Below, piece after piece: positions 22,663 to 25,586 of a DNA stretch of 40,958 nt; position 1 is the first letter of the stretch; the number at the start of each line of letters is the position of its first letter. This DNA comes from Alphaproteobacteria bacterium. Lineage in GTDB: Bacteria > Pseudomonadota > Alphaproteobacteria > Sphingomonadales > Kordiimonadaceae. The DNA is taken from contig JABXIS010000044.1 in NCBI GenBank assembly GCA_013372975.1, positions 1-40,958 of the forward strand, given 5' to 3'. The position numbers and the translations under genes were made by a program. The notes under the pieces were generated by a model. It worked only from the letters and a program-made list of their open reading frames with translations. It did not search any database and was not told the origin of the DNA.

Positions 22663-23052
22663 CTAGTCCTCGAGGGCCCTCAACTCACGCTCCAGACGGA
22701 ACCGCTTACTTGTCATGTAGGCTTCCATCTCTGAGGTCCGGCGTTCAATATCACGAAACCGGCGGCGCAGCTCTGCCGCAGTATAATCAGGGCTTTTGCG
22801 CGTCTGTTTCCAGAATTCCTCTTCCTTGTCGTCCTGGTAGAGGCCTTCGGGTTTCGGGTCCAATGCCATACCGAGAATGAAATAGCCGATCAGGAGCCAT
22901 GGGAAGGTAAATAGAATACCGAAGAAAGCCAGAAACCGAACCACACCTACCTTGATATCGAAATAATCTGCGATACCGGCACATACCCCCATCACGCGGC
23001 CACGTGCCGGATGTTTATAGAGCTTGGTTGGACGTTCCTTAAAATTTGTCAT
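22663..23052 (-). CDS. pspC: Phage shock protein C
   Basis: A 129-residue inner-membrane protein with a PspC domain: LYKHPARGRVMGVCAGIADYF, then a long hydrophobic stretch (about 40-63) ending GMALDPKP. A charged helical tail (EFWKQT to the end) would lie in the cytosol or, after membrane insertion, face its partners. PspC senses inner-membrane stress with PspB and binds PspA when the stress signal arrives. The start at 23052 gives the canonical N-terminus and lies inside the end of pspB, a 14-base overlap that implies translational coupling. Confidence 0.95.
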   Translation of the reverse strand: MTNFKERPTKLYKHPARGRVMGVCAGIADYFDIKVGVVRFLAFFGILFTFPWLLIGYFILGMALDPKPEGLYQDDKEEEFWKQTRKSPDYTAAELRRRFRDIERRTSEMEAYMTSKRFRLERELRALED

Positions 23053-23269
23053 GATGGCGGCTCCTCCAATCTGGCACTTCATCATCCATGATCCGCTCCA
23101 TGGTGCGAAGGCGATCCTCAAGGCGGTCTGCGGCATTTCTGAGATCACCTAGCGATGCCTCATCTTCCGGCGTGATGCCCTTCATCTGTTTCCATTTCGT
23201 GATGTAGTGAAAAATCAACCAAAGTGGAAACACCACAACGATGAGCAGGATCGGAATTGTCTCGTCCAT
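23039..23269 (-). CDS. pspB: Phage shock protein B
   Basis: A 76-residue protein with one N-terminal membrane helix (IPILLIVVVFPLWLIFHYI) and a cytosolic amphipathic region LRNAADRLEDRLRTMERIMDDE, the leucine-zipper-like part that contacts PspC and helps release PspF from PspA. Length and order match E. coli PspB. AGGGGAATAAA precedes the ATG. It begins 36 bases after pspA and overlaps pspC by 14 bases, so pspABC form one transcript from the sigma-54 promoter at about 24417-24433. Confidence 0.95.
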   Translation of the reverse strand: MDETIPILLIVVVFPLWLIFHYITKWKQMKGITPEDEASLGDLRNAADRLEDRLRTMERIMDDEVPDWRSRHHDKF

Positions 23270-23305: not shown

Positions 23306-24007
23306 TTATTTCGACGCCGATTTTTTTGCAGGAGCTTTTTTCTGGCTACCGCCTGCGGCTTTTGCCTTCAGCGCTGCGAGCTCTTGATCAATCTCGTCAT
23401 TGCTTTCCAGTTCCTTGAATGCATCTTCAAGGGTTTCACCACGGCCTAGTGCCATCGCCTCAGCTTCACCCTCCAGCCGGTCAAGGCGAGCATCCACTTT
23501 ATCAAAACGATCAAATGCATCCTGGATGCGGTTGTCATAGAGGTTTTTGCGCACACGCACCTGGTTGGTGGCTGATTTATGGCGCGCCTGCATGCTTGCT
23601 TTTTTGGCCCGCGCTTCACGAAGCTTGGCTTCAAGCTTGATCACATCTTCTTCGTTGCGGGTAAGCGCCTCAGCCAGATGCTTGAGCTCTTCCTCAAGAT
23701 GCGCAGCCATCTCTGCAACCTTGGATTTTTCAATCAAGGCGCCCTTCGCAAGATCATCACGACCCTTGGAGATCGCCAGCTCAGCCTTCTTTTCCCAATC
23801 GCCTTGCGCCTGTTTCACCTTTTTGATGCGACGCTCCAGGTCTTTCTGGTCAGCGATGGTTTTCGCGGCGGAAGACCGAACTTCCACAAGCGTGTCTTCC
23901 ATTTCCTGAATCACCATGCGGATGATTTTCTCAGGATCTTCCGCCTTATCCAGAATGGCATTGATGTTGGAATTGATGATGTCAGTCAGGCGTGAAAAAA
24001 TACCCAT
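23306..24007 (-). CDS. pspA: Phage shock protein A
   Basis: A 233-residue PspA/IM30-family coiled-coil protein of the ESCRT-III superfamily. It begins MGIFSRLTDIINSNINAILD, the amphipathic membrane-binding helix, and continues with long charged helices rich in Lys/Glu (about 25-185). The Lys/Ala-rich tail (AAGGSQKKAPAKKSASK) is an extension beyond E. coli PspA. It inhibits the PspF ATPase at rest and, under membrane stress, assembles on the inner membrane to limit proton leakage. AAAGGAAGTATAAA sets the start at 24007; the frame is open 17 codons further upstream, but that part is leader. Confidence 0.96.
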   Translation of the reverse strand: MGIFSRLTDIINSNINAILDKAEDPEKIIRMVIQEMEDTLVEVRSSAAKTIADQKDLERRIKKVKQAQGDWEKKAELAISKGRDDLAKGALIEKSKVAEMAAHLEEELKHLAEALTRNEEDVIKLEAKLREARAKKASMQARHKSATNQVRVRKNLYDNRIQDAFDRFDKVDARLDRLEGEAEAMALGRGETLEDAFKELESNDEIDQELAALKAKAAGGSQKKAPAKKSASK

Positions 24008-24028
24008 TTTATACTTCCTTTCGTATGT

Positions 24029-24301
24029 CCTCGCTACGTGTCCCGGGCTTTTCGCCATTTTTGGGGGACTTGCTTCCCGATCCTCGCTTTTTGTTTTATC
24101 GGGCTGCTTTGTAAGTCACGGCCCCGGCCTCCCTCTTTTCGGGGATCAGCCGGAGCCAGAATGAACTAGTTAAGACGACGTTGACGTTTCGTGCGGCGCT
24201 GGCGGCGGCTTGGCTCAGGAAGGCGGCCATCTGTGTGACGCACCAAATTAAAGCCTGCAAGCACACCAGCTGTCTCCATCCCCTCGCGTCGTGTCCCGGG
24301 C
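24029..24301 (-). repeat. Pair of 20-bp direct repeats in the psp leader
   Basis: Plus-strand CCTCGCTACGTGTCCCGGGC (24029-24048) and CCTCGCGTCGTGTCCCGGGC (24282-24301) match at 18 of 20 bases. The first lies just before the pspA ribosome site; the second is inside the small leader reading frame. Whether they act as RNA or DNA elements is unknown. Confidence 0.6.
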
Positions 24302-24333
24302 AAAACCGGCATCATCTGGAGCATGTTGGTCAT
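24166..24333 (-). CDS. Small basic 55-residue protein in the psp leader
   Basis: A short reading frame that begins MTNMLQMMPVLPG, has a middle segment ETAGVLAGFNLVRHTDG and ends in a very basic tail, RRQRRTKRQRRLN, followed by TAG. GAGGA lies about nine bases before the ATG. It falls within the approximately 400-nt leader expected between the sigma-54 promoter and pspA, in the same direction, and its codon choice resembles the neighbouring genes. It has no membrane helix or signal peptide. I know of no family. It might be a regulatory or nucleic-acid-binding micropeptide, or a leader peptide whose translation affects pspA. The 158 bases between its stop and pspA hold one copy of the 20-bp repeat and no other gene I can support. 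Confidence 0.65.
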   Translation of the reverse strand: MTNMLQMMPVLPGTRREGMETAGVLAGFNLVRHTDGRLPEPSRRQRRTKRQRRLN

Positions 24334-24416
24334 CTTTATCGTCCTCTAGTTCTTGTTCGCTGTCATAGTTGTTTTTGATGTCAGTCTTTTTGATCTCTCG
24401 CTGACACACCTATATT

Positions 24417-24433
24417 TGCAGGCCGCGTGCCAG
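24417..24433 (-). promoter_or_regulatory. Sigma-54 promoter of the psp operon
   Basis: Read on the minus strand, CTGGCACGCGGCCTGCA fits the sigma-54 consensus TGGCACG-N4-TTGC with one mismatch. It has the invariant GG (-24) and GC (-12) separated by exactly ten bases. The predicted transcript start is near 24406, running through the small ORF into pspA, pspB and pspC. It lies in the gap between pspA and the divergent activator gene pspF. Confidence 0.88.
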
Positions 24434-24493
24434 TTTTTAAAAAAATCATAAGATGTTGTTTTTATTGAATAAAAAATTTTACCCCTTGAATTT

Positions 24494-24531
24494 CGGTTAT
24501 CACCGTTGTAAATAATTGCTAATATTTAGCA
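24494..24531. promoter_or_regulatory. Candidate PspF upstream activating sites
   Basis: Two inverted repeats lie here: CGGT-tatc-ACCG (24494-24505) and TGCTAA-tat-TTAGCA (24517-24531). Relative to the predicted psp start at 24406 they fall at about -88 to -99 and -111 to -125, the range of the two PspF sites known in E. coli. They also lie just ahead of pspF itself, so binding could feed back on its expression. The A/T-rich stretch 24436-24485 would favour DNA bending. Confidence 0.55.
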
Positions 24532-24545
24532 TTTTTCACCATTAA

Positions 24546-25586
24546 ATGGCTACCATGGCAAAACAAGACCAAATCATTGGCAATTCGGCCTCCTTCCTGG
24601 ACCTGATGGACCAAATCAGCCGGGCTGCACCGTTGGACCGCCCCATGCTGGTGATAGGTGAACGCGGCACAGGCAAAGAATTGATCGCGGCACGACTTCA
24701 CTATCTTTCAGGCCGTTGGAATCGCAATTTTCAGAAAATGAACTGTGCTGCGTTAGCGGAATCGCTTTTGGAAAGTGAACTCTTTGGATATGAACCTGGC
24801 GCTTTTACCGGCGCCCGCAACCGCCGCGCAGGCCGCTTCGAAGCGGCTGACGAAGGTAGCCTTTTTCTTGATGAGATTGGCACCATGAGCATGGCAGCGC
24901 AGGAGAAACTCCTGCGTGTGATCGAATATGGCGAGTTTGAACGTGTTGGCGGCACAGACACAATCAATGTCGACGTACGCGTGATCGGCGCGACCAACAT
25001 TGATTTGCCGGCCGCGGCGGATGCAGGTGAATTCAGGCACGATTTACTAGATCGCCTGGCATTTGATGTAATCACCGTTCCGCCGCTCAGAGAGCGACCC
25101 GAGGACATTATGCTGCTGGCCGAACACTTTGGCATGGCAATGGCGCGCGAACTGGAATGGCTTGTTTTCCCTGGCTTCTCCCGCACAGCGACGGAAGCTA
25201 TGATGGACTATGCTTGGCCCGGCAACATTCGGGAGCTTAAAAATGTTGTCGAACGTGCAATCTATCGTGCATGGGATGGAGAGGCCCCAATTTGCGACAT
25301 TGTTTTTGATCCCTTTGAAAGTCCGTTCAGGCCACCCGCAAAAACCAACAGACCGCAAAATACCACACCAGAAGACAATGCTGACCAGCAAGAAGATGTC
25401 GCAAAGGCCGGGCCTTGCTTGCCGGAAGGCCCTTTCGACTTGCGTTCGCAGGTATGTGAGTTTGAGAAAACGCTCTATGGTCATGCATTGAAGGTCAATC
25501 GGCACAACCAGCGCAAGGCTGCTGAGCATGTCGGATTGAGCTATGATCAGTTCCGCCATGGGCTAAAAAAACACGGCTTGCTTTGA
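24546..25586 (+). CDS. pspF: Sigma-54 activator PspF
   Basis: A 346-residue bacterial enhancer-binding protein without a receiver or other sensory domain, as expected for PspF, which is controlled directly by PspA. The AAA+ domain shows Walker A (GERGTGKE), the sigma-54-contacting loop GAFTGA, Walker B (GSLFLDEIG), and the arginine-finger region LRERPEDI. A linker rich in Pro, Asn and Gln follows, then a Fis-type helix-turn-helix at the end (NQRKAAEHVGLSYDQFRHGL). Two in-frame ATGs (24546 and 24555) are possible; neither has a clear Shine-Dalgarno, suggesting low translation. It is divergent from pspABC, with the sigma-54 promoter between. Confidence 0.95.
   Translation: MATMAKQDQIIGNSASFLDLMDQISRAAPLDRPMLVIGERGTGKELIAARLHYLSGRWNRNFQKMNCAALAESLLESELFGYEPGAFTGARNRRAGRFEAADEGSLFLDEIGTMSMAAQEKLLRVIEYGEFERVGGTDTINVDVRVIGATNIDLPAAADAGEFRHDLLDRLAFDVITVPPLRERPEDIMLLAEHFGMAMARELEWLVFPGFSRTATEAMMDYAWPGNIRELKNVVERAIYRAWDGEAPICDIVFDPFESPFRPPAKTNRPQNTTPEDNADQQEDVAKAGPCLPEGPFDLRSQVCEFEKTLYGHALKVNRHNQRKAAEHVGLSYDQFRHGLKKHGLL

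Follow-up and report, generated by a model that had tools for sequence, protein, structure and literature searches.

Organization of the psp Locus

The DNA analysed, hereafter the window, is a stretch of 40,958 nucleotides from a member of the Kordiimonadaceae, and it carries a psp locus in which pspA (23306-24007, minus strand) is followed on the same strand by a pspB-like gene (23039-23269) and a pspC-like gene (22663-23052), two ORFs with putative names given by position, as is the start of the second. The ATG of pspA was set at 24007 by alignment with relatives, 54 of 59 of which give PspA matches with this start, and PspA is found in all 29 genomes of the window's family. The divergent pspF (24546-25586, plus strand) starts at 24546 or 24558 and occupies the matching place in relatives (tblastn). 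Upstream of pspA, the element TGGCACGCGGCCTGC (24418-24432, minus strand) was read from the sequence and is taken to be a sigma-54-type promoter on the basis of the consensus; the same kind of element occurs near gap position 126-150 in many relatives. From this element to the pspA ATG runs a leader of about 400 nt, as long as the initial annotation had indicated.

The leader contains an ORF of 55 codons (24166-24333, minus strand) that starts with ATG, ends in ...RRQRRTKRQRRLN, and is assigned as the first ORF of the psp transcript from the frame itself, the ORFs of relatives, and codon bias. A Shine-Dalgarno-like GAGGA (24342-24346, minus strand) ends 8 nt 5' of its ATG. The extent of the frame is exactly that initially annotated, where GAGGA had been noted as well placed. 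Between the small gene and pspA, a GC-rich hairpin (24120-24158, minus strand) is predicted in the fold of 24008-24165. The leader also includes a 20-nt direct repeat, with one copy in the ORF and the other just before pspA; from repeat copy and duplex energy, two sites of pairing with a small RNA (sRNA) are predicted on the minus strand, one before pspA (24027-24048) and one in the small gene from codon 11 (24280-24301), while a pattern scan detected a partial motif, ATGACAGCGA, upstream of the small gene (24357-24366, minus strand).

The arrangement resembles the classical pspF||pspABC locus of Escherichia coli and other proteobacteria in the divergent pspF, the sigma-54-type promoter, and the order of pspA and the pspB-/pspC-like genes, and differs from it in the extra small gene and in the approximately 400-nt leader with its sRNA-like sites; in fact, gammaproteobacterial pspF-pspA gaps mostly measure about 180-250 nt and are devoid of such an ORF.

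Occurrence and Coding Signature of the Small Gene

The pspF-pspA gaps were taken from 30 loci and 20 further regions. Six of the further regions come from families f5 and f8; a small ORF of this kind was not seen in their leaders, and these were used as controls. The 44 leaders analysed (29 from family f1, six from f2, one from f3, six from f6, and two from f7) represent five families, namely the Kordiimonadaceae and four neighbours. In 40 of them the slot has an ORF, 37-64 aa in length, that was classed with the family, and four lack it (L019, L020, L025, and L142). An order-wide profile matched 34 of the 40 ORFs at the slot with E <= 1.8e-5, most of these having also helped to build the profile; the other six (L007, L010, L023, L029, L147, and L151) were not matched by it and were classed on position and tail, L029 being also matched by a family profile that it helped to build and L023 being marginal (0.097).

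The family profile has 17 rows; of the 29 family genomes searched with it, 14 have no sequence among these rows. In these held-out genomes the best match fell at the slot beside pspA in eight (E from 3e-7 to a marginal 0.10) and elsewhere in three (G012, G015, and G016, E from 6e-4 to 0.14), and no match was returned in three (G009, G014, and G027). The order-wide profile located the gene between pspF and pspA in two new genomes (G063, E 3e-16; G061, E 5e-14). Across 289 genomes of the class, no match of the protein profile besides that in the window's own genome was better than 8.7e-4, in a search whose filters may lose weak matches. Matches at the psp slot, together with nothing above that level elsewhere in the class, make the gene appear lineage-specific and tied to the psp locus.

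The coding nature of the frame was evaluated on substitutions between relatives. In five pairs the counts at codon positions 1/2/3 were 48/46/125 (p 5e-13), while the 3' leader flanking the ORF in the same pairs gave 48/54/40 and gaps of which none, except one of 6, had a length that was a multiple of three. These are non-overlapping pairs chosen from a larger set of pairwise comparisons; the pooled test does not include L022/L023 (20/23/25), L152/L153 (22/21/35), the L144-L148 set, pairs that overlap, or the two whose members are near-identical. The window and its nearest relative gave 7/10/22 (p 0.0025) with an omega of 0.31. Pairwise omega lay between 0.07 and 0.51 in most comparisons, three not being computable, and single pairs of the most diverged set reached 0.70 and 1.03. 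In particular, codon models reject omega = 1 in three sets of 12, 15, and 10 sequences, with omega estimated at 0.272, 0.180, and 0.116 and twice the lnL difference amounting to 78, 151, and 154, respectively.

That the ORF arose merely by chance, as an open frame favoured by the GC-rich leader, is very improbable. Four of the 44 leaders do without such an ORF, and in the shuffled window leader alone its chance of arising is 11%; therefore, significance comes from the comparison and not from the single ORF. An ORF that begins with ATG 180-290 nt from pspF and spans 48-66 codons is present in 37 of 46 gaps (the 44 leaders, window included, and two f5 gaps) versus 4.1 (sd 1.9) expected from dinucleotide shuffles, and this excess, the codon-position counts, omega, and the profile matches all speak against chance. 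The window ORF thus looks coding, a small-protein gene conserved in Kordiimonas-like bacteria as judged from comparative sequence data. The initial annotation had proposed a real gene heading the psp operon and had pointed to loss of the frame in relatives, or to substitutions lacking codon-position bias, as what would speak against it; the frame is kept in 40 of the 44 leaders, the bias is that of 48/46/125, and purifying selection is evident at omega 0.12-0.27.

Features of the Encoded Protein and Known Small Proteins

The best-conserved form of the protein is MNxLxxLxxAL...ES...F, followed by a variable linker and RRRxRxRR. An AlphaFold2 model of the relative L145 (mean pLDDT 77.8) places helices at residues 3-28 and 45-57, from which the predicted fold is an N-terminal helix, a linker, and an Arg-rich C-terminal helix; the model of the window protein is poor (mean pLDDT 66.3), with the blocks covering the C-terminal helix 43-54 at 82-84. 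Taken with these models, the product is a fast-evolving, basic protein of about 55 aa, putatively helical in its N-terminal segment and continuing through a linker into what is usually an Arg-rich helix at the C-terminus. The Arg-rich end, where present, is usually close to the stop codon and is kept also in the two ORFs of 37 aa (L007 and L010). The strongly basic tail noted in the initial annotation is a feature of the window ORF that does not extend to all relatives: 9 of the 40 ORFs have no Arg tail (L012, L017, L018, L021, L023, L024, L026, L027, and L143), and the tail is therefore not the whole story. Two of these tail-less ORFs, L012 and L018, still have an omega of 0.07.

Searches of six family members against Pfam and NCBIfam gave nothing above cut-off, the weak matches being chance-like (e.g., Terminase_4, E 0.006), and the description of the gene as unlisted holds in this sense, as absence from these two collections. 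A PDB search with the small-protein profile did not return matches above cut-off either. The open-licence literature, among the matches listed, includes no small protein or sRNA at pspA recognised as this gene or sRNA, in agreement with the initial statement that no small protein had been described at this psp position. In the available portion of a survey of PSP systems, PspD and LiaI are named among the small partners and nothing like the small gene appears (PMC11237479).

In many long pspF-pspA gaps of other Alphaproteobacteria there is another type of small ORF, whose product has a transmembrane-like segment at its C-terminus. Fifteen were aligned (L039, L041, L043, L048-L050, L055, L062, L069, L070, L073, L080, L092, L098, and L100); an ORF of that kind was not seen in their short gaps (about 130-260 nt). 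These single-TM proteins have a basic N-terminal part and a Trp, followed by the C-terminal transmembrane-like ..YLxTRPxExWxFFAAGxxLGxILG, and the five that were scanned matched nothing in Pfam or NCBIfam above cut-off. They share with the window's small protein the location of their ORF between pspF and pspA in long leaders and differ from it in the C-terminal transmembrane-like segment; homology between the two was rejected, as hhalign found no profile similarity. Other small ORFs at the slot, in L058 and L160, have an N-terminal hydrophobic stretch, and in L053 a 70-aa ORF at gap position 187 resembles DUF1127 (E 0.012, 15.8 of 23.3 bits). The pspF-pspA slot seems to be a recurrent location of small genes.

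The small protein could be a basic peripheral membrane peptide that attaches directly, through its N-terminal helix and Arg tail, to PspA or to the inner membrane under stress, a reading that is possible and yet rather doubtful. Its place in the psp operon, the net charge of +1 to +10 across the 40 ORFs, and the small single-TM proteins at the same slot of other Alphaproteobacteria are consistent with such a role, against which stand the tail missing in 9 of 40 ORFs and an N-terminal hydrophobic moment weakly above that of shuffles (mean z 0.2-0.6; profile p 0.10). Given this weak signal, an amphipathic membrane-binding N-terminus was not retained.

DUF1127 proteins are rich in arginine. One of them, CcaF1 of Rhodobacter sphaeroides, is described in the accessible part of PMC10253847 as an RNA-binding protein of 71 aa. 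Going by that part of the source, CcaF1 with the CcsR sRNAs resembles the case studied here as a small alphaproteobacterial protein linked to stress sRNAs. The differences are that the six members tested do not match DUF1127 (PF06568; up to E 10 in four of them and up to E 1 in two more) and that the sRNA-like gene described below lies elsewhere in the genome and not in the same operon. By analogy, an RNA-binding role like that of CcaF1 may be considered for the small protein, without being the favoured one, and would be nearly as likely as the accessory role in the Psp response proposed below.

The sRNA-Like Gene

The motif GCCYGRGYNACGACAGCGAGG, or degenerate forms of it, is common to the related leaders, several of which have more than one copy; in other leaders the full motif was not seen, and scattered one-mismatch matches to its 8-nt core occur. 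Exact CCCGAGTCACGACAGC was found in 18 genomes among the matches listed, and examination of these places revealed that each of the 18 corresponds, in reverse complement, to a small sRNA-like gene, located elsewhere in the genome than the psp operon. In the window's genome this gene occupies about 80758-80843 of C40 (minus strand), with its 5' part in addition. Besides hairpins, which appeared in the six sequences folded, the gene contains a stretch, UAUCCUCGCUGUCGUGACUCGGG, and an intrinsic terminator (GGCCGGG..CCCGGCC and a U tract). The stem of the terminator and its U tract are present in 18 of 18 aligned genes, and hairpins and terminator are conserved from one family to another. The search itself fixed 16 bases of UAUCCUCGCUGUCGUGACUCGGG, and the invariant flanks ATCCTC and CCGGG are independent of it. 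A covariance model, R1, was derived from the RNAalifold consensus, which kept the terminator and a 4-bp helix and lost the upstream hairpin; the main basis of R1 is therefore the terminator together with the conserved stretch.

Of the 147 genomes of the order searched with this model, 44 gave the gene at E <= 6e-12, 18 of the 44 being builders of the model, and all are from f1 (28 of 29, the exception being G002, 76% complete), f2 (8), f6 (6), and f7 (2). At the same threshold none was found in families f3, f4, f5, and f8 of the order, where the best score was 4.6e-6 (f8), and among 289 class genomes nothing besides the own genome was better than 5.4e-5, again with filters that may lose weak matches. 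The lineage range of the sRNA-like gene is nearly that of the sites.

Rfam searched with the window leader gave no match up to E 1. The sRNA-like gene is similar to SorX (RF02784; 32.8 bits, E 1.2e-4) and SorY (RF02651; 35.6 bits, E 4.4e-4), and the elements that align are a pair of hairpins, a CCUC.CUGU stretch, and a terminator rich in GGCC. Both scores are below the gathering scores of 46.6 and 111 bits, respectively. The roles reported for SorX and SorY in the available part of PMC7074977, metabolite flux and polyamine transport, also differ in not concerning psp. Among the other places examined, a GC-rich hairpin in L203 (1092-1150, minus strand) scored with Rfam STnc390 (E 0.004, 30 of 50 bits), probably as a chance terminator match.

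Predicted Pairing with the psp Leader

The site before pspA (24027-24048) stops at its 3' end 19 nt short of the pspA ATG, which leaves about 5 nt to the Shine-Dalgarno of this gene. Its predicted duplex with the sRNA stretch has an energy of -32.5 kcal/mol, a value attained by 1 of 2000 leader shuffles; the site within the small gene (24280-24301) reaches -33.0 kcal/mol, attained by 0 of 2000, and the pairing of the partial motif at 24357-24366 is weaker than -24 kcal/mol. When each leader was compared with its own shuffles, 41 of the 44 Kordiimonas-type leaders had z < -2 and 37 had z < -3 (mean -4.8), related leaders not being independent, though four families are involved. Among 76 control leaders (mean z -0.13) four were below -2, including one below -3; these controls derive from 80 loci after subtraction of seven of Kordiimonas type (L032-L038) and three without a divergent pspF (L071, L086, and L093) and addition of the six f5/f8 leaders. 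Shuffled sRNA stretches never reached the real mean energy (0 of 150), and the reversed stretch gave -23.7 versus -32.4 kcal/mol for the real one. By these shuffles of leader and stretch and by the controls, the complementarity of the sRNA-like gene to the psp leader is beyond chance. The initial annotation makes no mention of these repeated sites.

A site of -24 kcal/mol or lower whose end lies 16-31 nt upstream of the pspA ATG is present in 32 of the 44 leaders. Most leaders have their site outside the small ORF; L003 is another case of a predicted site inside it, and in L147 and L151 a site ends 8-9 nt before the small gene. The leaders not below z -2 are L158 (-0.3), L144 (-1.7), and L145 (about -2.0), the latter two having short recognisable sites. 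L158, the most poorly pairing, is the leader of the f3 genome G030 (90% complete), which has no sRNA match. Sites and sRNA also come apart in G058 (89% complete), where a site is present and the sRNA has no match, and in G047 and G063, where the sRNA is present and the sites are weak (z -2.2 and -25 kcal/mol, respectively). The leader of G061, not used before, has a site of -42 kcal/mol 26 nt before pspA, the sRNA of this genome being among the 18 of the model.

As for accessibility in the predicted folds, the pspA Shine-Dalgarno is 0.66-1.0 unpaired, the 5' half of the site before pspA is paired, and the pairing stretch in the sRNA of the window's genome is unpaired at 0.18-0.98 over most of its length. 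This partial pairing of both partners speaks against the duplex and would also fit a different origin of the motif, namely a dispersed repeat or protein-binding element to which the sRNA-like gene is merely an inverted relative and for which the psp leader is no sRNA target. A search with the 16-nt core allowing one mismatch found 209 places in 25 genomes versus 101 for the reversed pattern, with no excess in G039 and G040, and in 32 loci around motif matches many appeared to be inside coding sequence; moreover, in G033 the antisense strand of the psp leader (C1:1322484-1322563, minus strand) scores with the sRNA model at E 4.2e-6. A repeat or protein-binding element is nonetheless improbable, considering that 32 of 44 leaders place the site at nearly the same distance from the pspA start, that the lineage ranges of sRNA and sites nearly match, and that pairing is poorest (z -0.3) in the leader of G030, the f3 genome in which the sRNA has no match. 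From the G033 score, it is conceivable that in places an antisense RNA comes from the psp leader itself.

The motif is also located shortly before other start codons (L198, L202, L244, L248, L255, and L257), preceding genes for a GntR-family regulator (Pfam) and small membrane-like proteins, and an ABC-transporter-like gene in L255, where several copies are in tandem; judged on the motif, these are possibly further members of the sRNA regulon. L197 and L242 show the same motif pair at a matching intergenic place, with no gene assigned to it, in the window's genome and in its nearest relative.

Leader Structure and Proposed Control of pspA

The region 24008-24165 folds with z -2.70, a value equalled by 2 of 200 shuffles, and comparable hairpins are visible by eye in several relatives. 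No terminator-like site was found in 23990-24560 and, with no intrinsic terminator between the small ORF and pspA, an attenuator was rejected. A leader peptide would be a related possibility, in which pspA is controlled by translation of the ORF as such, whatever its product, through a change in RNA structure or through removal of the sRNA from a site in the ORF. Such control would be in keeping with an ORF that sits in the leader, with a 3' leader more structured than its shuffles, with Arg-rich ends that are usually close to the stop, and with the predicted sites inside the ORF of the window and of L003. It is nevertheless unlikely: purifying selection acts on the product sequence well beyond the ORF end (omega 0.12-0.27), the Arg tail is missing in 9 of 40 ORFs, the distance from the small ORF to pspA varies from 34 to 238 nt across leaders, terminator-like sites are lacking in the region above, and most leaders have the site outside the ORF.

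The explanation preferred here, which is held with good confidence, is that the ORF is the genuine first gene of a psp operon driven by PspF and sigma-54 in the Kordiimonadaceae and the neighbouring families, and that the leader is riboregulatory, with sites of about 22 nt complementary to the sRNA-like gene, which would act in trans. It draws on what was computed, that is, the coding signature, the conserved sites, the structure of the sRNA-like gene, and the nearly shared lineage range. In this operon PspF and sigma-54 would induce a transcript starting about 70-75 nt before the small gene, as deduced from the promoter element, from which the small protein and PspA-PspB-PspC would be made, while the sRNA would pair beside the pspA Shine-Dalgarno, repression being the simplest sign of control. 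It is reasonably likely that an sRNA transcript is made, which pairs with the leader and lowers pspA translation, this sign being preferred because the site abuts a Shine-Dalgarno predicted to be open; activation of pspA by the sRNA instead of repression is less likely.

The role of the small protein can be proposed tentatively: acting in trans, it may be an accessory of the Psp response whose N-terminal helix docks on a partner and whose Arg helix adds affinity for RNA or anionic lipids, an inclination due to the tie of the gene to the locus and to the persistence of the N-terminal part in the tail-less ORFs. A speculative extension with a small probability is that the PspF-induced protein and the sRNA form a regulatory pair: by binding to the sRNA, or to its sites, which according to lineage precede the small gene, fall within it, or precede pspA, the protein would set the limit that the sRNA imposes on pspA. 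ORF and sites are separable, L019, L020, and L025 having sites without the ORF and L158 the ORF without sites, and joint action of protein and sRNA is therefore not claimed.

Implications for the Psp Response

The psp response is a textbook envelope-stress system that is usually described as switched by PspF, PspA, and PspB/PspC. In this lineage a putative additional small protein heads the psp operon and conserved sRNA-like sites precede pspA, both of which give directly testable predictions; the operon probably has an extra protein and an extra layer of RNA control. The occurrence of different small membrane proteins at the same slot elsewhere suggests that small accessory proteins of psp operons have been overlooked. 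If the protein and the sRNA did act as a regulatory pair, an autoregulatory RNA circuit would be built into a membrane-stress operon, and further envelope-gene leaders would belong to the same sRNA regulon.
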